NCBI GenBank assembly: GCA_021850625.1
Contig: JAJZLJ010000032.1
Span: forward strand, 1 to 46,419
Direction: 5' to 3'
DNA length: 46,419 nucleotides
Source: Microcaldota archaeon
GTDB lineage: Archaea > Micrarchaeota > Micrarchaeia > Micrarchaeales > CABMGC01
In this document: positions 30,485 to 42,835 of the stretch, one piece after another
Numbering within the stretch: the first letter of the stretch is position 1
How the letters are laid out: each line of letters opens with the position of its first letter
Notes under the pieces: model-generated
Databases searched by the model: none
Seen by the model: only the letters and a program-made list of their open reading frames with translations
What the model was told of the DNA's origin: nothing
Made by a program: the position numbers and the translations under genes

Positions 30485-31123
30485 TCATTTTGAGGTTTTG
30501 AACAGTTCAAGCTGATTGGAGAATCCTTCAAGCCTAAAAAGTATAGTGTCCTTTGAGTTTTCTATATCTAATATTATACTTTCAGGAGGTTTTATAGTAA
30601 GTATATACGCCCTATCTGAAGAAAAAATCCACGAACCAAGCGTATGATCATGATACTTGCCAGAAATATCTCCGACGTACTTAGATTTTGAAAGCAATTT
30701 GCCTATAAGAAGTTCTATAGAAGGATCATATTTTTCTATTATTATACTCTCCCTGTTGTTTTCGGTGACCTCTAGAGAGTATGGTTTTATAAAAGGTACA
30801 TCAAGCAGTGTTGCTTTTTCGGTTATAACACTTGACATTTTAGCAAAATTTACACTTGAGCTTTCAAGTTCTTTATCAAGCTTTTCTTTATCTGAACTAA
30901 ATGCAAGAAACACAGAAGAAAAATACTCTTCTACAGCTTCTTTTGCTTTTTTTAACGATTCATTAGCTGAAGGTTTCGACGCATAGGTAGTTGGATTTAA
31001 AAGCAGATTACGCAATTTAAAGCTTGAGTCTTTAAGTATAGTTTTGTCTATTCCTTCAATAAAACTATCTGTAAGATCATCCCAATCCTGTTTTGTTTCC
31101 TTCGCTTGATCATTTGCTGCCAA
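30485..31123 (-). CDS. Hypothetical protein
   Basis: Long ORF, 212 aa, in line with minus-strand neighbours; no family recognised. Confidence 0.6.
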   Translation of the reverse strand: MAANDQAKETKQDWDDLTDSFIEGIDKTILKDSSFKLRNLLLNPTTYASKPSANESLKKAKEAVEEYFSSVFLAFSSDKEKLDKELESSSVNFAKMSSVITEKATLLDVPFIKPYSLEVTENNRESIIIEKYDPSIELLIGKLLSKSKYVGDISGKYHDHTLGSWIFSSDRAYILTIKPPESIILDIENSKDTILFRLEGFSNQLELFKTSK

Positions 31124-31252
31124 TAAAACACCTATAGTATAATAAAGGACAGAAAGATATTTTAGCCTTCTTAATTCTCAAATCTTTAATTAAGCATAAC
31201 TCAACAGTTTTTGCATAGAAAGATATTTTACTTTAAGGCTTTAAATAATATT

Positions 31253-32194
31253 ATGGATGGAGTAGAAGGTTTTGACAAAAAAACAATAGATTTGGCTTAT
31301 AAATATCCATTTTCCAATGAAGCAAAAGAGATAATTAAAAACGTTAGGCAGGAAATAGACCAAAAAATGATAGGATATGGAGTAGTTAGACTTCAAAAAG
31401 CACTAAATAATGAAAAGGCCGACATAGACCAAAGCTTGACCGATAATATAAAAATCATTCATATTTCTAGTTATGTTTATGCAAGAATGCTTGCGAGCGC
31501 ATTAAAGGATACAACAGTTATAAAGAATTTTGCTAAGTACGAATCAAAAAGATCTGTTAACGCACTTATAAATGATAGTGAGGAAAGCATATTTTTAATT
31601 TCAGGAGAGATTGGAACAGAGATTAAAAAGGTAGGTGATGAGTTCAAGATTTACTTTACAAAGTTCCTTTTAAATAAACCAAAGGATCAGGAGTTTTTAT
31701 TAACTAAACAAAATATTGATTTAGGTTATGTTTACTTATCTAAAGAAAAAATATCTAAATTTTTAGGCAGTAGAATAGAGAAGGAGATTCTGAAAAATTT
31801 GCCAATACCTAAAAGTGAACTTCCAGAAGAGATAATACAGAACGCTAAAAAAATAAAGATTCCAGTATCTGAAGTGAAGTTTAAATCGTCTAATTTAAAA
31901 CAGTATGAATGGATAGACAAACTTCTTTCACACCCAATAGCAGATGTAAGACATAGGACGGTAAATCTTATTCTTGCACCTTATCTTGCTAATATACTAG
32001 GGCTTGATGAAGAAAATGCAGTTAAAATAATTAATAAATACATAGACAAATGTAAAGAGATAAATCCTGACACAAATGTAAATGAGACATATATAAGGTA
32101 TCAAGTAAGATACTCAAAAGCTAAAGGAATGAAACCATTATCTAGAGAAAGGGCAAAGGAATTGCTTGATGATCCAGTAATTTTTGAAAGATGA
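31253..32194 (+). CDS. priL: DNA primase large-subunit-like protein lacking Fe-S cysteines
   Basis: ISSYVYARMLASAL..FAKYESKRSVNALI and LLTKQNIDLGYVYLSKEKISKFL match PriL N-domain pattern; C-terminus HPIADVRHRTVNLILAPYLANILGL; one Cys in whole protein; alternative TTG start 31211. Confidence 0.75.
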   Translation: MDGVEGFDKKTIDLAYKYPFSNEAKEIIKNVRQEIDQKMIGYGVVRLQKALNNEKADIDQSLTDNIKIIHISSYVYARMLASALKDTTVIKNFAKYESKRSVNALINDSEESIFLISGEIGTEIKKVGDEFKIYFTKFLLNKPKDQEFLLTKQNIDLGYVYLSKEKISKFLGSRIEKEILKNLPIPKSELPEEIIQNAKKIKIPVSEVKFKSSNLKQYEWIDKLLSHPIADVRHRTVNLILAPYLANILGLDEENAVKIINKYIDKCKEINPDTNVNETYIRYQVRYSKAKGMKPLSRERAKELLDDPVIFER

Positions 32195-32865: not shown

Positions 32866-33243
32866 ATGCTTTCAGAGTATATAACGATCATAATATTCAT
32901 TGCTTTTTCAATATTTGTACCTATGTCGTTAGTAATAACCTCAATGCTATTAGGCATTAAAAAGCAACAAAATAAGGTATCTGAATTAAATTTTGAAAGT
33001 GCAGAAGAAAGCATTGGATCGCATGTATCGATCATGGCAGAGTATTTCCATTACTTCACTGGTTTTCTTGCTTTTGAGGTAGTTGCAGCGTTGATACTTG
33101 CCTGGGCGTATGTTGCAAGAAGCGTGCAGTTGATAGATAATTTGTATTTTATAGGAATAGTTATTTTATGCATGGTATTTGAGGCATTTGTAATTATTTT
33201 GGCCCTTAAACGCTTTTGGAGAGTAGGTGAGTATTATGAGTGA
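32866..33243 (+). CDS. nuoA: Complex I subunit NuoA
   Basis: Three-TM protein with NuoA-like FxxxFLxFEVxxxLILAWA; directly upstream of nuoB. Confidence 0.85.
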   Translation: MLSEYITIIIFIAFSIFVPMSLVITSMLLGIKKQQNKVSELNFESAEESIGSHVSIMAEYFHYFTGFLAFEVVAALILAWAYVARSVQLIDNLYFIGIVILCMVFEAFVIILALKRFWRVGEYYE

Positions 33244-33793
33244 GGAAGTAATAAAAGAGAATGCAAGAAAAGAGATGGACGCGTTAGTGGCAAACTCGCT
33301 AAGCGGTAAAAAAATAAAACCTAATGTAGCTTTTGGAAAGCTTTCTGATTTGGCCAAAGTCATGTCAAAAGGAATGATTGAGTGGTCAAGAGTTAATTCG
33401 TTGTGGCCATTGCAGTTCGGTCTTGCATGCTGTGCTATGGAGCTGATGGACTTTGGCTCTTCCAGAGTAGATGCTGAAAGAAAAGGTTTTCTGCTTTTCA
33501 GAGCAACTCCAAGGCAAGCAGATGTTATGCTGGTTGCAGGATGGGTCACTAAATCAATGGTTCCAGAGATAAAAAGATTGTATGAACAGATGTCACGTCC
33601 CAGATATGTAATTGCGTTTGGAGAGTGCGCAACATGCGGTGGTCCATGGTGGGAAAGTTACAATATAGTAAAAGGCATAGACCAAGTACTTCCAGTTGAT
33701 GTTTATGTTGCAGGATGCCCTCCAAGGCCAGAGAATCTTTTCTCTGCGTTAATTAAACTGCAGAAAAAAATAGGTGGAGAAATTGAATATTGA
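33227..33793 (+). CDS. nuoB: Complex I subunit NuoB
   Basis: FGLACCAMELM, GECATCGGPWW, VAGCPPRPENL. Confidence 0.95.
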   Translation: MSIMSEEVIKENARKEMDALVANSLSGKKIKPNVAFGKLSDLAKVMSKGMIEWSRVNSLWPLQFGLACCAMELMDFGSSRVDAERKGFLLFRATPRQADVMLVAGWVTKSMVPEIKRLYEQMSRPRYVIAFGECATCGGPWWESYNIVKGIDQVLPVDVYVAGCPPRPENLFSALIKLQKKIGGEIEY

Positions 33794-34148
33794 AAGAGCA
33801 GCGCTTTTACCTACGATTGAAAAGATGAAACAGAGTGGTTTTGATTACTTGGTCAAAATAACCGCGGTAGATTATATTAAAAAAATAAATGTGATTTATA
33901 TACTTAGATCCCTTGAACAAAACAAAGATGAGATTCTTGAGGTTGAGATAGACCCCACTGATGCATGGATAGAGAGTATAATGAAATTTTATCTAGGAGC
34001 TGATTGGTATGAACGTGAGCTGCAGGAGATGTTTGGAGTGAAGATTAAGGGAAGAGTAGCAAAACGATTGCTTTTAGAGAAATGGGATGGAAAAGGCTTC
34101 CCGTTAAGAAAGAATTTTGTCTGGAATAAATCATATGATAAGGAATAA
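33774..34148 (+). CDS. nuoC: Complex I subunit NuoC
   Basis: WYERELQEMFGVKIKG ... WDGKGFPLRKNF. Confidence 0.9.
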   Translation: MEKLNIERAALLPTIEKMKQSGFDYLVKITAVDYIKKINVIYILRSLEQNKDEILEVEIDPTDAWIESIMKFYLGADWYERELQEMFGVKIKGRVAKRLLLEKWDGKGFPLRKNFVWNKSYDKE

Positions 34149-34150
34149 TT

Positions 34151-35251
34151 ATGGCATTGACTAGAATAAACATAGGACCTGTGCACCCAAGCACACATGG
34201 GGTTGCAAGACTTGTGGTGGATCTTGATGGAGATACAATAGTTAAGATAGAGCCACATATAGGATATCTCCACAGAGGAGTTGAAAAGCTAGTTGAGACA
34301 AGAATGTATATGCAAAGTCCTCCATATATGGAAAAAATAGATTATGTTGCTCCTATGGCAATGGATGAACTTTATGTTGCAACCGTTGAAAAAGCATTAG
34401 GCATTGATGTAAGTGAAAAGGCAGGATATGCTAGGATGATACTTCTTGAGCTGCAGAGAATAGCTAGCCACTTATTTTGGATAGGAAGCGTAACTAATGA
34501 CCTTGGACAGTCATTTACTGGCTTTATGTGGGGCTTTAGAGACAGGGATATAATTCTTAGACTTTTAGAGGATGCAACAGGACAGAGAATGTTCTATGTA
34601 AACATGAGACTTGGCGGAATAACAAGAGAGTTTCCAAAAGACTTTGAAGAGAACACAATAAAAACTCTCGCATACTTAGAAAAAAGAATGAAGGAGTATG
34701 AAAATTTTATAGAGAAAAATCCAATATTTATACAAAGAATGAAGGGAGTTGGGGTCTTAAGTATAGATGATGCAATAAATCTAGGAGTCACAGGACATGT
34801 TTTAAGAGCTTGTGGGGTCAAGTATGATGTTAGAAAAAACAATCCTTATTACAATTATGAAACCTTAAACTTTCATCCTAAAATATTGAGTGATGGAGAT
34901 AATTTATCAAGATATAGAGTAAGAATAATGGAGATAGAGGAAAGTATTAGAATAATACGTGATTCTTTTTATAAATTGCAGAGTGCGCATGGAAATATGG
35001 TAGGCATGCCAGTTAAGTTGGTTTCACCTAAACCGGTAAATAAGATAGCAATGGTAAGCAGAGAGGCTCCAAGAGGCGAAGCTATGATGTATCTGGTCTG
35101 TGATGATCAAAAGCCATACAGGCTTTCTATAAGATCACCTACATTCATAAATCTTGCAGCCTTGAATCATATTGCAAAAGGGCATAGGCTAGCTGATTTA
35201 TTTTCAATCTTTGCAACGCTGGATATGGTGATGGCAGATGTTGATAGATAA
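34151..35251 (+). CDS. nuoD: Complex I subunit NuoD
   Basis: GPVHPSTHGVARLVVDLDGDTIV, IGYLHRGVEKL; C-terminal LDMVMADVDR. Confidence 0.95.
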   Translation: MALTRINIGPVHPSTHGVARLVVDLDGDTIVKIEPHIGYLHRGVEKLVETRMYMQSPPYMEKIDYVAPMAMDELYVATVEKALGIDVSEKAGYARMILLELQRIASHLFWIGSVTNDLGQSFTGFMWGFRDRDIILRLLEDATGQRMFYVNMRLGGITREFPKDFEENTIKTLAYLEKRMKEYENFIEKNPIFIQRMKGVGVLSIDDAINLGVTGHVLRACGVKYDVRKNNPYYNYETLNFHPKILSDGDNLSRYRVRIMEIEESIRIIRDSFYKLQSAHGNMVGMPVKLVSPKPVNKIAMVSREAPRGEAMMYLVCDDQKPYRLSIRSPTFINLAALNHIAKGHRLADLFSIFATLDMVMADVDR

Positions 35252-36242
35252 CTTAACAGGATACTTTTATTCAGGACTAAACTCTCCTAACATACTTGTA
35301 AGTATACTTTTTGTTATAATATACGCAATAATAATTTCAATATTAATGTCGGTTTTTGCATATGTCTTTGGTTGGGTTGAAAGAAAAATGATTGCAAAGA
35401 CACAGTACAGGCATGGACCGACATATGTTGGAAAGTATGGAATATTTCAAAATCTTGCTGATTTTATAAAGCTTCTTTCTAAAGAGAAGATGGTGCCTGG
35501 AAATGCAGATAGATTTTTACTTAATGTAGCACCAGTATTGTTGGTTAGCATAACTGTTTTCATTATATTTTTAATACCGTTTTCACCTTACTTGCAAGCA
35601 AGCAACTTAGGGCTAGGGCTACTGGTAATATTTGTGTTTCTTGGCTTTACTCCTCTACTGCTTTTCGTTGCAGGATACTCTAGTGGTGGAAAGTTTGCAG
35701 AGCTTGGCGCCCAGAGATCGGTGCTTATGTTAATAAGTTACGAAATTCCAATGATAATAGTTGTTGCTACAGTTGGATTTGCTGCTGGCTCTTACAACTT
35801 AAACAGCATAATAAGAATGCAGAGCACCTTGCCTTATGCTATTCTTATGCCAATAGGATTAATAATATTCTTTATAGCTATGCTAGCAGAACTAGAGAGA
35901 CCTCCTTTCGATTTAAGAGAGGCAGATTCTGAATTAATAGCAGGATGGCTAACCGATATAAGTGCACCATATTATGCCCTTGCACTAATGCTTGATTATA
36001 CAAGAATGTTCATGGGATCACTTATAATAGCAATCCTTTTCTTTGCAGGCTGGAGTGGTCCGATTCTTCCAGGAATATTTTGGTTGATAATAAAAGCGTT
36101 TATAATCTCAGTATTTATTATTATAGTAAGGGTTACTGTAGTAAGGATGAGAATAGACAAGATATTGAAGTTAGGATGGATGTATCTTCTTCCACTATCA
36201 TTAATAAACCTTTTATTAACATTAATAATTGTAATATTATAA
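35238..36242 (+). CDS. nuoH: Complex I subunit NuoH
   Basis: ERKMIAKTQYRHGPTYVGKYGIFQNLADFIKLLSKE; ELERPPFDLREADSELIAGW. Confidence 0.95.
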   Translation: MLIDNLTGYFYSGLNSPNILVSILFVIIYAIIISILMSVFAYVFGWVERKMIAKTQYRHGPTYVGKYGIFQNLADFIKLLSKEKMVPGNADRFLLNVAPVLLVSITVFIIFLIPFSPYLQASNLGLGLLVIFVFLGFTPLLLFVAGYSSGGKFAELGAQRSVLMLISYEIPMIIVVATVGFAAGSYNLNSIIRMQSTLPYAILMPIGLIIFFIAMLAELERPPFDLREADSELIAGWLTDISAPYYALALMLDYTRMFMGSLIIAILFFAGWSGPILPGIFWLIIKAFIISVFIIIVRVTVVRMRIDKILKLGWMYLLPLSLINLLLTLIIVIL

Positions 36243-36243
36243 G

Positions 36244-36615
36244 ATGATTTACTTGATAAAACCGATTATAGAAACTATAAAGGTTCTTGGAAGGGAAAGA
36301 TTTACCACTCAGTTCCCAGAAGAGAGGGAGTCTTTACCTGACAGCTACAGATCAATGTTTAAACTTGATATTGAAACGTGTATTAGCTGTTCAGCATGCG
36401 CAAGAATCTGTCCAAACAACACAATTACAATGGTAGGAATAATTACTGAAAAAGGCAACAAAGTCATGCCTGAGATAGGAATAGAAAGATGCCTGTTCTG
36501 TGCTTTGTGTGCGGAGGTATGCCCGCCCAAATGCCTTACCCTCACAAAAAATTATGAGGTTCTTGAGGCATATGATAAAAGAAAATTTATAAAAAGACCC
36601 GAGGAGCTTGAGTAG
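36244..36615 (+). CDS. nuoI: Complex I subunit NuoI
   Basis: CISCSACARICP and CLFCALCAEVCPPKCL. Confidence 0.92.
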   Translation: MIYLIKPIIETIKVLGRERFTTQFPEERESLPDSYRSMFKLDIETCISCSACARICPNNTITMVGIITEKGNKVMPEIGIERCLFCALCAEVCPPKCLTLTKNYEVLEAYDKRKFIKRPEELE

Positions 36616-36620
36616 AGTAT

Positions 36621-37097
36621 ATGTATAGCGTTGAGTTGTTTAGTATTGTTTCTGTCGTTATGATAATCTCAGGCATAAGCATATTCTATCAAAAAAGCAT
36701 AATGCGTGCAGTTATTGCATTGAGTATATCGTTTATTGCAAGTTCATTGATATTCTTTATTTTAAATCAACAGTTTATTGCTTTACTGCAACTTTTTGTT
36801 TTTGTAGGAGGAATGTCAACATACCTAATAGTCGCAGTGTCTTCGGAATATAAAAAAATAAATAAAATTGATTTTATAAAAATAGGAGTTGCTGCAATTA
36901 TAATATCTATGAGTTTTTCTTTGTTATTTACAGTCATAAACTTTAACACATCAAATACTGCTCCAGGAATGAGCGTATACTTTGCTACTGCGTTTGAAGA
37001 GTATTATCCAGTGTTAGTAGCCGCAGTTATAATGCTGTTCCTTGCTGCCATAGGGAGCGTTATAGTTATAAGAAAATTTGTAACCTTGGTTTCATGA
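36621..37097 (+). CDS. nuoJ: Complex I subunit NuoJ
   Basis: Five-TM; QLFVFVGGMSTYLIVAV; position between nuoI and nuoK. Confidence 0.88.
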   Translation: MYSVELFSIVSVVMIISGISIFYQKSIMRAVIALSISFIASSLIFFILNQQFIALLQLFVFVGGMSTYLIVAVSSEYKKINKIDFIKIGVAAIIISMSFSLLFTVINFNTSNTAPGMSVYFATAFEEYYPVLVAAVIMLFLAAIGSVIVIRKFVTLVS

Positions 37098-37402
37098 TAC
37101 CTTTACTTTATATAATAGGCATTTGCGCTGCTATGGTGAGCATAGGGATTGCAGCTGTAATAATTGAAAAAAACTTTATAACAATAATGCTTGCAGTTGA
37201 ACTCATTTTTATGGCAAGTACTATAGCGTTTGTAGGTTTTTATTCGTATAGCTCTGCACCTGGACCTTGGGCATTCATAGGAATATTTTCAGTGTGGTCA
37301 GTAGCAGCAGTAGAGATAATCTCACTTATAGCGATATATGTCTATATGAAAGCGCGTGGTTTTAATTTTGATATAGGCATCCTTACAAAATTCAAGTGGT
37401 AA
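37094..37402 (+). CDS. nuoK: Complex I subunit NuoK
   Basis: AVELIFMAS and VWSVAAVEIISLIAIYVYM with conserved Glu pair. Confidence 0.9.
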   Translation: MIPLLYIIGICAAMVSIGIAAVIIEKNFITIMLAVELIFMASTIAFVGFYSYSSAPGPWAFIGIFSVWSVAAVEIISLIAIYVYMKARGFNFDIGILTKFKW

Positions 37403-37403
37403 A

Positions 37404-39164
37404 ATGCAAGCATTACTTTTATTATTGCCCCTGTTGCTTTCAATAATAGCAATGAGTTTTGTAAGAAAAGAATTTGTAAAGTACATAGCTCTAATAGCAA
37501 GTGTGATAAGCCTTGTATTGCTTATAATAGTAAACAATGGCAGCTACTTTATTACATTATTAAGTTTGGGCGGATATACATTGCAGATAGCTACAAATAT
37601 TGCGGCCTTAAATCTTCTTTTGTTAAGTATAGTTTTGATCATAGCACCTTTGGTGATTTTTTACTCGTTTGGATATATGAACATAAGAAGTGAGCAGAGG
37701 AGATTTTATATCGAGATAGTTGCATTTGAAGCTGCAATGCTGCTTTTTGCGATGAGCTACAGTTTCATAACAATGTTCATAGCTTGGGAGTTTCTCAGCT
37801 TAACTAGTTATTTACTCATAGGGTTTTGGTACAACAATGAAGTAGCGAATATTGCTGCAAGAAAAGCAATAACTACAGTTTTTATAGGAGATATCTGCAT
37901 ACTTGCCGCAATGGCAATTATGCTTGCTATATCAGGATCACTTAACTTTACAACAGTTTTCACATCGTTACAAAATGCACCAAGTGCAGAGCTACTTGTA
38001 GCTATTTTGCTAGGTATAGCAATATTTACTAAATCTGCACAGTTCCCATTCAGCGAGTGGCTTCCAGATGCTATGGAAGGCCCTACACCAGTATCGGCAT
38101 TTCTTCACTCAAGTACCATGGTAAAAGCAGGTGTGTTTGCGCTTTTGATATTGTCCCCAATATTCATACAAACCAACCTTAATACTATGATATTTTACTT
38201 TGCGTTGATAACAATAATTTTAGCCACACTGAATGCGTTGAAAGAAAAGCACATTAAAAAAGTAATCGCTTACTCAACAATACAAGAACTTGGCCTTATG
38301 GTGCTTGCAATTAGCGGTGGCGCGGTTGCGGCAGGAGTGTACTTCTTCTTTGCCCAAAGCTTCTATAAAGTTTTACTATTTTTTAGCTCAGGAGCTGTGA
38401 TGGAGGCTACTGAAAAAACAAGTTTAGATGAAACATCAGGATTAAAAACAAATAAACTTATTTACATAACAACATTGTTCGGAGTTCTCTCTTTAGCAGG
38501 ATTTATACCATTTGATGGTTTTTTTGCAAGCATGGGTTTAAGCTCTTCATTTTCAAGCAACCTGCTTGTCTATTTAGCATTGAACATTTTTGGAGTTCTT
38601 ACAAGCATTTATGCGTTTAGATGGTTCTTTCTAAATGGAAAGAAAAGCCCAGCAGCAGTAACTGTAAAGTATCTATCAATGCCAAAAAGTATAGTTATAA
38701 GCATGATAATAAGCGCAGTGTTAACATTGGTAGCCTCGCTTGTATTTTTCTACTTCGGAGTATTTGGCTTTAACTCTTTTCAGACATTAAGCATAACATC
38801 ACTTAACTACTTTGATGTTCTAATCGAGAGCATTCTTGCCGTAATAGGATTATTAATCGCATATGTCATATATAAAAAATCACTTAGAATAAGGTCATCA
38901 TATCTAATAAAACTTATTAATAATGGCATTCTAACAAACGAAGTATACCTTTATTTTGTCAAAGCAATTTATGAATTTGCAGAAGGTTTTTATATTTTTG
39001 AGGAAGGGCTTTCAAAGTTTCTCGATGGAGTCGGCTATATGTTTATCGATATTGGAAAGGAGGTACGTAAGGTCTCGGTAGGCAATGTAAATAGCTATGC
39101 CTTAATTCTTTCGGTAGGAATTATACTGCTTTTCGTGTTTGTGTATATGATTAATGTGGTTTAA
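37404..39164 (+). CDS. nuoL: Complex I subunit NuoL
   Basis: SAQFPFSEWLPDAMEGPTPVSAFLHSSTMVKAGVF. Confidence 0.95.
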   Translation: MQALLLLLPLLLSIIAMSFVRKEFVKYIALIASVISLVLLIIVNNGSYFITLLSLGGYTLQIATNIAALNLLLLSIVLIIAPLVIFYSFGYMNIRSEQRRFYIEIVAFEAAMLLFAMSYSFITMFIAWEFLSLTSYLLIGFWYNNEVANIAARKAITTVFIGDICILAAMAIMLAISGSLNFTTVFTSLQNAPSAELLVAILLGIAIFTKSAQFPFSEWLPDAMEGPTPVSAFLHSSTMVKAGVFALLILSPIFIQTNLNTMIFYFALITIILATLNALKEKHIKKVIAYSTIQELGLMVLAISGGAVAAGVYFFFAQSFYKVLLFFSSGAVMEATEKTSLDETSGLKTNKLIYITTLFGVLSLAGFIPFDGFFASMGLSSSFSSNLLVYLALNIFGVLTSIYAFRWFFLNGKKSPAAVTVKYLSMPKSIVISMIISAVLTLVASLVFFYFGVFGFNSFQTLSITSLNYFDVLIESILAVIGLLIAYVIYKKSLRIRSSYLIKLINNGILTNEVYLYFVKAIYEFAEGFYIFEEGLSKFLDGVGYMFIDIGKEVRKVSVGNVNSYALILSVGIILLFVFVYMINVV

Positions 39165-40532
39165 ATGTTTACATTTTATATTTTTGGAGTTTTGTGCGCC
39201 GCGCTGATATTCGGAGATCTTCTACTGAACATTTTTTCCAATAAAAGGGTGCAGGTAATATTTAATATTATACTTCTGTTCTTTATAGGAATAATAATAC
39301 TTTATGCTTATTATAATAATTCTTATTCGTCCATTTTAGGATTGTTCTCATTCAACCCATTCTCAGAGTTCTTTATACTCTTATTCACTGTTGGAGTAGC
39401 ATTGATAAACCTTCTTTACTTTTCATTTGCAGAAGATTACAGAGAGCTCTCTATGCTTCTTAGCTTTTCCCTTATTGGAATGTATATTGTTGCTCTATCA
39501 AACTCGTTGACTGGAATATTCATAGGACTTGAACTTATGAGCATACCTACTGTGTTTTCAATTCTTTTATCTAAAAAAAGCCTTGAAGCTGCAACAAAAC
39601 TTTTTATATTGGCTGCAATATCAATAGCCATATTCTCATTCGCTATGGCAATAACTTATGGAGGCTTGGGTACTTTATCTCTTATAAAGTCACAGTACTC
39701 AAATATTATGCTGGTAGCTTTTGTACTTTTTGTAGTATCGCTTGGATTTGAAGCCTCAATTTTTCCCTTCAATGTGCTTGTTCCGGATATATACGAAGGC
39801 TCTCCCGGATACATAACTGCTCTTTTAGGAGGAGTGAATAAAAAGGTAGGATTTGCTGCACTTATTCAAGTGCTTATACTTATTTTTATAGCTTATCACT
39901 CTGCCTTTATAGTAATAGCCATCTTATCGGTTTTCACAATGTTTTATGGAAATATAGGTGCATTGATGCAGAAAAATCTTAAGAGACTTATGGCTTACTC
40001 ATCAATTGCTCAAGCTGGTTATATATTGATAGGGATAGCTACTGCAAGTGTTTATGGAATGAGTGGCGCCCTGTTCCAAATCTTTGCGCACGTATTCATA
40101 TTCATAGGCCTTCTTGCTATAATTGCCACACTTGAAAGAAAAAATATGACAACGATAGATAGCATTGCAGGACTTAAAGATAAAAACCCGTTCATGGCCT
40201 TTGCTATGGTACTTTTTATGCTCTCTCTTGTAGGCCTGCCACTCACTACTGGCTTTGTAGGTAAGATACTTATCTTTTTAGGAGCCATCTATGCAGGCCT
40301 TGCAATTTTAGCTGTACTTGGAGTATTAAATAGCATGATATCGCTTTATTATTATTTGAAGATAATAACATCTATCTACTCAAAGGACACCTTGAAAAAG
40401 CATGTAAACGTAGATAAATATACGCTTTCAGTAGTTGTTATATGTTTAGCGGTAACGATCTTATTCGGAATATTTCCACAACCAATCCTTAACATGATAA
40501 ATAGCGCAGCAACATATCTTTTTAGTTTGTAA
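39165..40532 (+). CDS. nuoN: Complex I subunit NuoN
   Basis: FPFNVLVPDIYEGSPGYITALLGGVNKKVGFAAL. Confidence 0.88.
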   Translation: MFTFYIFGVLCAALIFGDLLLNIFSNKRVQVIFNIILLFFIGIIILYAYYNNSYSSILGLFSFNPFSEFFILLFTVGVALINLLYFSFAEDYRELSMLLSFSLIGMYIVALSNSLTGIFIGLELMSIPTVFSILLSKKSLEAATKLFILAAISIAIFSFAMAITYGGLGTLSLIKSQYSNIMLVAFVLFVVSLGFEASIFPFNVLVPDIYEGSPGYITALLGGVNKKVGFAALIQVLILIFIAYHSAFIVIAILSVFTMFYGNIGALMQKNLKRLMAYSSIAQAGYILIGIATASVYGMSGALFQIFAHVFIFIGLLAIIATLERKNMTTIDSIAGLKDKNPFMAFAMVLFMLSLVGLPLTTGFVGKILIFLGAIYAGLAILAVLGVLNSMISLYYYLKIITSIYSKDTLKKHVNVDKYTLSVVVICLAVTILFGIFPQPILNMINSAATYLFSL

Positions 40533-40593
40533 GAGGCAGTTATTTTTTTGTTTTTATATTTTCTTGTGATGTCCTCCGCCGCTAAGAATTAAA

Positions 40594-41985
40594 TTAATGA
40601 ATTAGTAGTGATGGCATTATGCCAAAAATAATGGTAATGGCAAGAAGAAAGATCTCTGAGTATAACACACTGTTTACCAAATATCCAGTTTGAACTGATC
40701 TTCCAGAAAGAAACACTCGTTCTATTATCCAGAAAAGCAGTGCACCAAGAAGAATTACGCTTAGTAATGGAATTAATGCTATAGCACCAAAGGTAGTGAA
40801 TGCCGCTGTAAATATAAGAAGATCAGCTATAAATCCTACAGTAAGAGGTATTCCAACTGTAGCAAAGGTAGCTGCTATGAATAAGTATGCTAATGCATGA
40901 AAGTTCTTTATCACACCTTTTAATGCTGATATATCTAAAGTTCCATAAAGCTCCTTTAATGTTCCTGCAACAAGGAAAAGCATTGATATTGCTATGGCAT
41001 GACCTAACATACCATAAAGAGCACCGTTAACTCCAAGAATACTTCCAGAAGCTATACCTATAGAGACTATTGCCATGTCAGTTATACTGCTATAAGCTAT
41101 AGTTCGCTTAAGGTTTGATTGGCGCATAGCAACAAAAACCGAGTATAGTGCAGATAATGAAAAGATTGCGGCAAGATATATCTCATAATTTTTGAATATA
41201 GGAAGCATAAAGCTTGTTAGTATAAGCCCATAACCACCGAACTTAAGCAAAACACCAGCAAGTATCATGCTGCCCTGAGTAGGAGCCTGTGTATGTGCAT
41301 CTGGAAGCCAGTTATGAAATGGAAAAATAGGTATCTTTATCATAAATGAAACTAGAAGAAGTATTAGTATTATAAGTTGCGTAGTTGGAGGTATTGTAGA
41401 AGCAGTAGCTATTATCTGGGATATTGAAAAGGTATTTGGAGTTATATTTATATAGATAAAAAGAATAGCTACAAGAAGCAAAAGACTAGATATTATAGAG
41501 TACAGAATGAACTTTATGGCTGCATACCTTCTGTTTGATGCACCATATAGATAAATAATAAAAAACATTGAGAACTCTGCTATCTCCCAGAAAACATAAA
41601 GAAAAAGTAAGCTTGAGGATAGAAATAAGGCTATTGATGAACCTTCTATTAATGCAAATAATATAGCATATGTGCGCTTATTATCTTTAATAAAGTAATC
41701 GATACCTATAGATGAGGCTGCGAAAACAATAGCCGCCATTATTTCAAGTATTAAGGTATTTTGCGTTAGAGAAAAACCTACATTAAAACCAAGATAATTA
41801 AGAGATATTGGAGCTGTAAGATAAGATTGTGAGGTTAATGATCCATAAAGCAAGAGAAATGATAGCAAAAGAACCAGTATTGCGCTTACTGACTGCACCT
41901 TTTTTATTAGGTATGCAGGTATTACAAGAAGTATAGGTATTGAAAGAAAGGGTATTAGTATTATAAAAAACAGTAAAGGGAACAT
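40594..41985 (-). CDS. nuoM: Complex I subunit NuoM (opposite strand)
   Basis: FPFHNWLPDAHTQAPTQGSMILAGVLLKFGGYGL; ATG at 41985. Confidence 0.93.
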   Translation of the reverse strand: MFPLLFFIILIPFLSIPILLVIPAYLIKKVQSVSAILVLLLSFLLLYGSLTSQSYLTAPISLNYLGFNVGFSLTQNTLILEIMAAIVFAASSIGIDYFIKDNKRTYAILFALIEGSSIALFLSSSLLFLYVFWEIAEFSMFFIIYLYGASNRRYAAIKFILYSIISSLLLLVAILFIYINITPNTFSISQIIATASTIPPTTQLIILILLLVSFMIKIPIFPFHNWLPDAHTQAPTQGSMILAGVLLKFGGYGLILTSFMLPIFKNYEIYLAAIFSLSALYSVFVAMRQSNLKRTIAYSSITDMAIVSIGIASGSILGVNGALYGMLGHAIAISMLFLVAGTLKELYGTLDISALKGVIKNFHALAYLFIAATFATVGIPLTVGFIADLLIFTAAFTTFGAIALIPLLSVILLGALLFWIIERVFLSGRSVQTGYLVNSVLYSEIFLLAITIIFGIMPSLLIH

Positions 41986-42010
41986 TATATAACCGTTCAA
42001 TATATAATTC

Positions 42011-42835
42011 TTGTTAAAAAAGTATATAAATGCTGGTGATGACACGGAATCTAACTCATACGAAGAGGACATAAGTAAGATTATTGATCAAAATGGAGGG
42101 CTTATTGATAAAAAAATGGCATCTCAAATAAAAAATACTCAGGAAGCTACAAAAAGTTATCAGAAACTAACCGTTGATTTGCTCTTAAAACATGAAGTAG
42201 TAGATGGAAGCATAGTTAACATTGAGGATAAGGTATATAGAGTATTTAATAAAATAAAGATGGAGATTAATGGAACTCCAAGAATAAAAAGAGTGGTAGT
42301 TCTTGGAGCTGAAGCTCGCACAGTCTCAATCTCGTTATGGGATAAAAATTGTAATTTTATAGACTCAATGCTAATACAAAGGGGAGATAGTGTGTCTATA
42401 AGCAGCCTTAAGGTGAGAAAGGTATCAGATGACATAGAATTGTCTAGTACCTCTGGAACTTACATAAGCAGAGTAGTACCATCATATAATTTTAAATCTA
42501 ATTTTTCAGAACTCTCTGAAAATGAGAGAAATATAGATATAATGGGAAGAATACTTTCAGTAAGTCCCATAAGATACTTCAAGGACCTTGATGGTAAGCA
42601 GAGCGGAGTTTCAGAGTGCAGTATAACCGATGGAAAAACAGAAGCGCATGTGACTCTTTGGAGATCATCTAGCGGCTACTCTACCGATATGCATCCTGGA
42701 GCATATATTAAATTAGAGTTTGTTTCTGTAAAAAAAATAGATGATAAACTAGAGATAACTGCCACAGACGCCTCAAGAATATTAATAGGACAGGGTTTAG
42801 GATCATTGATTGGAAAGATAGGAAAAAATCAGTAG
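42011..42835 (+). CDS. OB-fold single-stranded DNA-binding (RPA-like) protein
   Basis: NIDIMGRILSVSPIRYFKDLDGKQSGVSECSITDGKTEAHVTLWR; TTG start, no in-frame ATG near. Confidence 0.75.
   Translation: MLKKYINAGDDTESNSYEEDISKIIDQNGGLIDKKMASQIKNTQEATKSYQKLTVDLLLKHEVVDGSIVNIEDKVYRVFNKIKMEINGTPRIKRVVVLGAEARTVSISLWDKNCNFIDSMLIQRGDSVSISSLKVRKVSDDIELSSTSGTYISRVVPSYNFKSNFSELSENERNIDIMGRILSVSPIRYFKDLDGKQSGVSECSITDGKTEAHVTLWRSSSGYSTDMHPGAYIKLEFVSVKKIDDKLEITATDASRILIGQGLGSLIGKIGKNQ

Follow-up and report, generated by a model that had tools for sequence, protein, structure and literature searches.

A natural PriL-PriX fusion as the probable non-catalytic subunit of a cluster-free, two-subunit primase in a Candidatus Micrarchaeota archaeon

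The DNA analysed here (the window, 46,419 nucleotides in its entirety) encodes a protein, PriL-X, in which the N-terminal domain of the primase subunit PriL is followed, in one reading frame, by a PriX domain in the place of the 4Fe-4S C-terminal domain. We consider it very probable (approximately 0.92) that PriL-X is the sole non-catalytic subunit of a cluster-free replicative primase composed of PriS and PriL-X in this Candidatus Micrarchaeota archaeon. An earlier note on the same DNA had proposed a natural PriL-PriX fusion within such a two-subunit enzyme, and this is still the best reading given the PriX fold of the C-terminal domain, the presence of PriS and searches for an Fe-S PriL that returned none; to it we add a shifted start codon, the spread of the fusion through an entire archaeal order and the occurrence of fusions in other lineages.

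It is debated whether primase uses its 4Fe-4S cluster as a functional redox switch or merely retains it as a structural relic, and the main counter-evidence so far to a need for the cluster has come from an engineered Sulfolobus chimera. PriX has been stated to be Sulfolobales-specific and without sequence similarity to other proteins (PMC9258230), and Micrarchaeota have been stated to possess canonical PriS and PriL (PMC7414124; PMC6349945). An order-wide PriL-X contradicts both statements. No description of a natural PriL-PriX fusion was found in the accessible literature, with Liu 2015 (the discovery of PriX) and Raymann 2014 lying outside that search; the order-wide cluster-free primase is thus new as a natural form, its engineered equivalent being already known.

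The priL-X gene and its two domains

The open reading frame at 31211-32194 on the forward strand begins with TTG and encodes 327 amino acids including a single Cys, exactly as first described. The N-terminal ends of aligned relatives (n = 77) all lie near the segment 'LDFAYKYPF', and for this reason the ATG at 31253 is probably the true start, with a coding sequence of 31253-32194 (+) and a product of 313 amino acids. Residues are numbered from this ATG, except where the listed 327-residue ORF is named.

Residues 1-200 (31253-31852, +) form the PriL N-terminal domain (PriL-NTD), by homology the putative PriS-binding part. PriL-NTD models cover amino acids 30-230 of the listed ORF, with NF002588 aligned over its positions 7-219 and scoring 77 bits, in agreement with the PriL-like N-terminal part read from the letters alone; the Pfam PriL model PF04104 stays under its cut-off for this protein and aligns over the first 68 of its 266 positions. 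The PriX domain occupies residues 217-306 (31901-32170, +) and is recognized by both curated models across amino acids 231-319 of the listed ORF, NF033412 at 106.6 bits against a cut-off of 50 and PF18689 at 47.6 bits against a cut-off of 25. Since NF033412 belongs to the NCBIfam class 'equivalog_domain', fused forms of PriX may be known to its curators.

The AlphaFold2 model of the complete protein (mean pLDDT 91.7) comprises a PriL core and a PriX fold. In Foldseek, the N-terminal part was matched by the PriL core of 1zt2_D (TMt 0.75, rmsd 3.3), and the C-terminal part by PriX (5of3_F, TMt 0.81, rmsd 2.1; also 4wyh). Modelled alone, the C-terminal domain retained a pLDDT of 88 and a predicted helical-bundle fold, and its top three PDB matches were all Sulfolobus PriX (E 2-4e-4, TM 0.70-0.81, rmsd 1.6-2.1), the next match being noise (E > 2); together with the two curated models and the NTP-site residues described below, this bears out the PriX-type C-terminus that the earlier note had suspected. 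The top PDB sequence match of the single window protein was 5OFN_B, an engineered Sulfolobus PriL-X chimera, and a family profile built from 40 relatives aligned with 5OFN_B end to end (E 2.3e-44, positions 12-305). Chance resemblance is ruled out by the model scores and by recurrence of the same two-domain frame in 146 genomes; a reading as part of a defence system was likewise considered, and PADLOC gave no match.

The nucleotide-binding motif and the cysteines

In S. solfataricus PriX, residues D70, R72 and R74 grip the initiating NTP by its triphosphate, and mutants lose initiation or are crippled in it (PMC5700102). Their counterparts in the window protein are D231, R233 and R235, within the motif DVRHR (31943-31957, +). 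This motif reads D-x-R-[HQ]-R in 77 of the 77 aligned Micrarchaeota fusions, and its D and two R residues remain invariant when the Nitrososphaeria, Diapherotrites and Sulfolobales sequences in the alignment are included. By analogy, D231, R233 and R235 would bind NTP here too.

The cluster ligands follow the opposite pattern. Amongst 24 PriL sequences of sister families the four cluster positions are Cys in 24, 24, 23 and 23 cases, whilst none of the 77 fusions has Cys at any of these positions, so that the absence of an Fe-S cysteine set reported for the window protein extends to its relatives. Its only Cys, C267 (codon 32051-32053, +), is invariant in the Micrarchaeota fusions (77/77) and is not at a cluster-ligand position; as it is matched in the alignment by a Cys of other PriL proteins in the class that is not a cluster ligand, its role is probably structural, and a single Cys cannot hold a 4Fe-4S cluster. 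A second Cys, C285, occurs in 69 of the 77 fusions. The notion that C267 and C285 form a residual metal site is not supported, given that there are two residues only, that C285 is missing from 8 of the 77 and from the window protein, and that C267 is the non-cluster Cys. We infer that the protein carries no cluster and probably no other metal.

Primase subunits in the host genome and across the order

The host genome (808 kb, 82.9% complete) contains one PriX match, which lies inside the PriL frame. PriS is encoded by a separate gene on another contig (G000:C2:59352-60032; 394 aa), scores 178 bits against TIGR00335 (cut-off 143.5) and has its motifs DLD, SGNRGYHIH and RLPNTIHG intact, providing the catalytic partner that the proposed enzyme needs. 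Searches with PF04104 and a full-length PriL model for a second PriL, one with the Fe-S domain, returned none from this 82.9% complete genome, nor from any of the 165 genomes of the order.

Our survey covered 303 genomes of the phylum, 165 of them belonging to the order of the window. PriX was detected in 146 of the 303, all within the two families of this order, and the fusion is present in 146 of the 165 genomes of the order and in all 52 that are near-complete, each of which also has PriS. The search for an Fe-S PriL succeeded in 104 genomes of the phylum, every one outside the order's families, and most of the other orders of the class have it. The negative result for the order includes the 52 near-complete genomes: the 15 weak PF04104 matches obtained there each lie directly upstream of a PriX match in the same frame and represent the N-terminal part of the fusion, and the 360-position PriL model aligned over approximately positions 7-230 only in each near-complete genome. 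Three genomes assembled as single contigs (G190, G258 and G263) carry the fusion as their only PriL. The incomplete host assembly would fit an alternative in which the fusion is an accessory or repair subunit, with a canonical Fe-S PriL missed by the assembly carrying out replicative priming. Nevertheless, the same search that recovers 104 genomes with an independent Fe-S PriL in other families yields 0 among the 165 of the order, rendering this explanation extremely improbable. The whole order thus appears to prime replication without a 4Fe-4S domain.

Elsewhere in the class, apparently truncated PriL genes lie upstream of PriS in the three genomes of genus g120 (L116, L117 and L123, in G293, G294 and G292 respectively) and in G284 (L139, a truncation known from one MAG). 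In these proteins nothing of the C-terminal domain remains beyond its first helical lobe, and they have neither the cluster Cys nor PriX; in g120 and G284 the Fe-S cluster has thus apparently been lost on further, independent occasions.

Comparison with known primases and a proposed mechanism

The closest counterparts of PriL-X are laboratory constructs. The S. solfataricus 'Chimera' (5OFN; PMC5700102) and the PriLn-Xc of S. islandicus CHI-deltaX (PMC12019639) share with it the domain order, a near-identical junction and the initiation residues, and both belong, as PriL-X probably does, to two-subunit enzymes with PriS and without an Fe-S domain. These chimeras were engineered, whereas the Micrarchaeota fusion is natural and order-wide, and identity between them is only ~19-25%. 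Paired with wild-type PriS, the chimera of PriL 1-211 and PriX 42-154 equals the natural trimer in priming in vitro (PMC5700102), and S. islandicus in which such a fusion replaces priL and priX is viable and grows normally but is defective in microhomology/strand annealing and in double-strand-break repair (PMC12019639).

In the PriSLX heterotrimer of Sulfolobales (PF18689 / NF033412; 5OF3, 4WYH) the PriX fold and the D-x-R-x-R site are the same as in the Micrarchaeota protein, but there PriX forms a third subunit of its own beside a PriL that retains the Fe-S domain, whilst the Micrarchaeota PriX is part of a PriL chain that lacks this domain; with neither a separate PriX nor an Fe-S PriL detected, the host genome does not encode an enzyme of the Sulfolobales type. 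Canonical archaeal and eukaryotic PriL (PF04104) has the N-terminal domain and the PriS partner in common with the fusion, which in turn lacks the 4Fe-4S C-terminal domain and the four Cys of the canonical subunit. Fused primase subunits are also found in the DPANN cluster 2 PriS-PriL proteins (PMC7414124), yet in those PriS is joined to PriL and the Fe-S C-terminal domain (CTD) is kept (e.g. L195), whereas the Micrarchaeota PriS is a protein by itself and the domain fused to PriL is PriX. Finally, the PriCT domains of mobile-element primases (PMC5862659) are helical bundles that serve initiation without a cluster and are related to the Fe-S_N lobe of PriL and to PriX, but they are fused to the catalytic domain of those primases rather than to a cellular PriL.

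Because the Micrarchaeota protein consists of the parts of the chimera in the same order, a PriS-PriL-X heterodimer with priming activity may be expected by analogy. In such an enzyme the PriL-NTD would dock on PriS, and the tethered PriX domain would bind the triphosphate of the initiating NTP via D231/R233/R235 and swing to the active site of PriS, where the dinucleotide would be made. PriX might then retain the 5' triphosphate end and so limit primer length, as in the caliper model (reviewed in PMC6393858), with a 4Fe-4S cluster taking no part in priming. The annealing and break-repair defect of the S. islandicus fusion strain is likewise predicted for these Micrarchaeota, and for fusion lineages in general this would mean an absence of PriSL-type end joining. 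Evolution has apparently built the same construct as the engineers and fixed it in a whole archaeal order, with candidates in other phyla, providing natural and probably essential primases for tests of cluster-independence, primer counting and initiation. The annotation of the Micrarchaeota primase and the known range of PriX are corrected accordingly.

PriX outside the order

A scan with a PriX profile and a search of Nitrososphaeria, for which we use the taxon names given in the records and in which single-case MAGs may be misbinned, revealed PriX in three settings. Stand-alone PriX was found in Sulfolobales (L142, L143). Fusions of a PriL-NTD to PriX occur in Nitrososphaeria MAGs (part of L172-L193), a Geothermarchaeota MAG (L182) and a Diapherotrites MAG (L148), and no Fe-S PriL was detected in those genomes with such a fusion that were checked. 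The third setting, a PriS-like protein joined to PriX, is seen in Nitrososphaeria (L211-L224 except L214 and L215; L226), in the Desulfurococcales MAGs L144-L147 and in an Aenigmatarchaeota MAG (L149), and L201 and L203 also combine a PriS-like catalytic domain with PriX. Some Nitrososphaeria carry such proteins in multiple copies, with as many as 9 PriX places in one genome. The PriS-like-PriX proteins look like members of a mobile-element primase family, making a mobile origin of PriX a lead worth following; among the viral contigs, phages and plasmids scanned, PriX matches were absent. The Aenigmatarchaeota fused PriS-PriL (L195) has an Fe-S CTD with a PriX-type DGRKR motif, which forms a bridge in sequence between PriX and the PriL-CTD.

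Origin of the fusion

In phylogenetic analysis the N-terminal domains of the Micrarchaeota fusions formed one clade (support 98), grouped with the PriL of other Micrarchaeota (support 92) and apart from the Nitrososphaeria fusions, with an AU test not rejecting one clade that unites the NTDs of all fusions (p-AU 0.31). The N-terminal domain was most probably inherited vertically within the class. Profile comparison (hhalign) gave E 1e-32 over ~90 columns between fusion PriX and PriX of other lineages, against E 7e-7 over ~50 columns between fusion PriX and the PriL-CTD of its own class, column-shuffle controls giving Prob < 1. Since the fusion PriX is so much closer to the former, replacement of the Fe-S domain by PriX in the ancestor of the order would be likelier than degeneration in place. 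According to the latter explanation, PriL's own Fe-S CTD lost its cluster and C-terminal lobe, and the likeness to PriX reflects retained ancestry or convergence. PriL-CTD and PriX are indeed homologous, as the match to sister PriL-CTD illustrates, and truncations do occur in the class (L116, L117, L123 and possibly L139), but the proteins concerned have retained PriL-CTD sequence of their own and gain no score from the PriX model, and we regard in-place loss as unlikely.

Even less probable is that the PriX domain was acquired laterally from Sulfolobales, with which these archaea share acidic habitats. The PriX family and its motif are common to both, and the literature knew PriX only from Sulfolobales; however, in the PriX-domain tree, which has 102 columns only and an uncertain deeper order, Sulfolobales PriX is nested in a clade of Desulfurococcales-MAG PriS-like-PriX proteins (98), and Micrarchaeota PriX lies beside Aenigmatarchaeota PriS-like-PriX (83, weak). 

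It seems reasonably probable that PriX is a widespread, exchangeable initiation module and that the 4Fe-4S domain of PriL has disappeared more than once from the cellular primases of archaea: in Micrarchaeota and in Nitrososphaeria/Geothermarchaeota/Diapherotrites PriX would have taken its place, and in other Micrarchaeota it would have been truncated. If so, a redox-active cluster is not a universal need of the PriSL family, and whole clades do without the PriL-CTD-dependent strand-annealing repair that has been proposed as general in archaea.

Genomic surroundings

The divergent neighbour of the primase gene (30485-31123, -) encodes a 212-amino-acid protein without a Pfam or NCBIfam match. 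Genes for complex I (Nuo) stand in a row at 32866-42072 of the window, among which NuoB, NuoD and a NuoM-like subunit are confirmed by NCBIfam and the remaining Nuo genes are assigned by reading only; this represents substantial respiratory equipment for a DPANN genome of 0.8 Mb.
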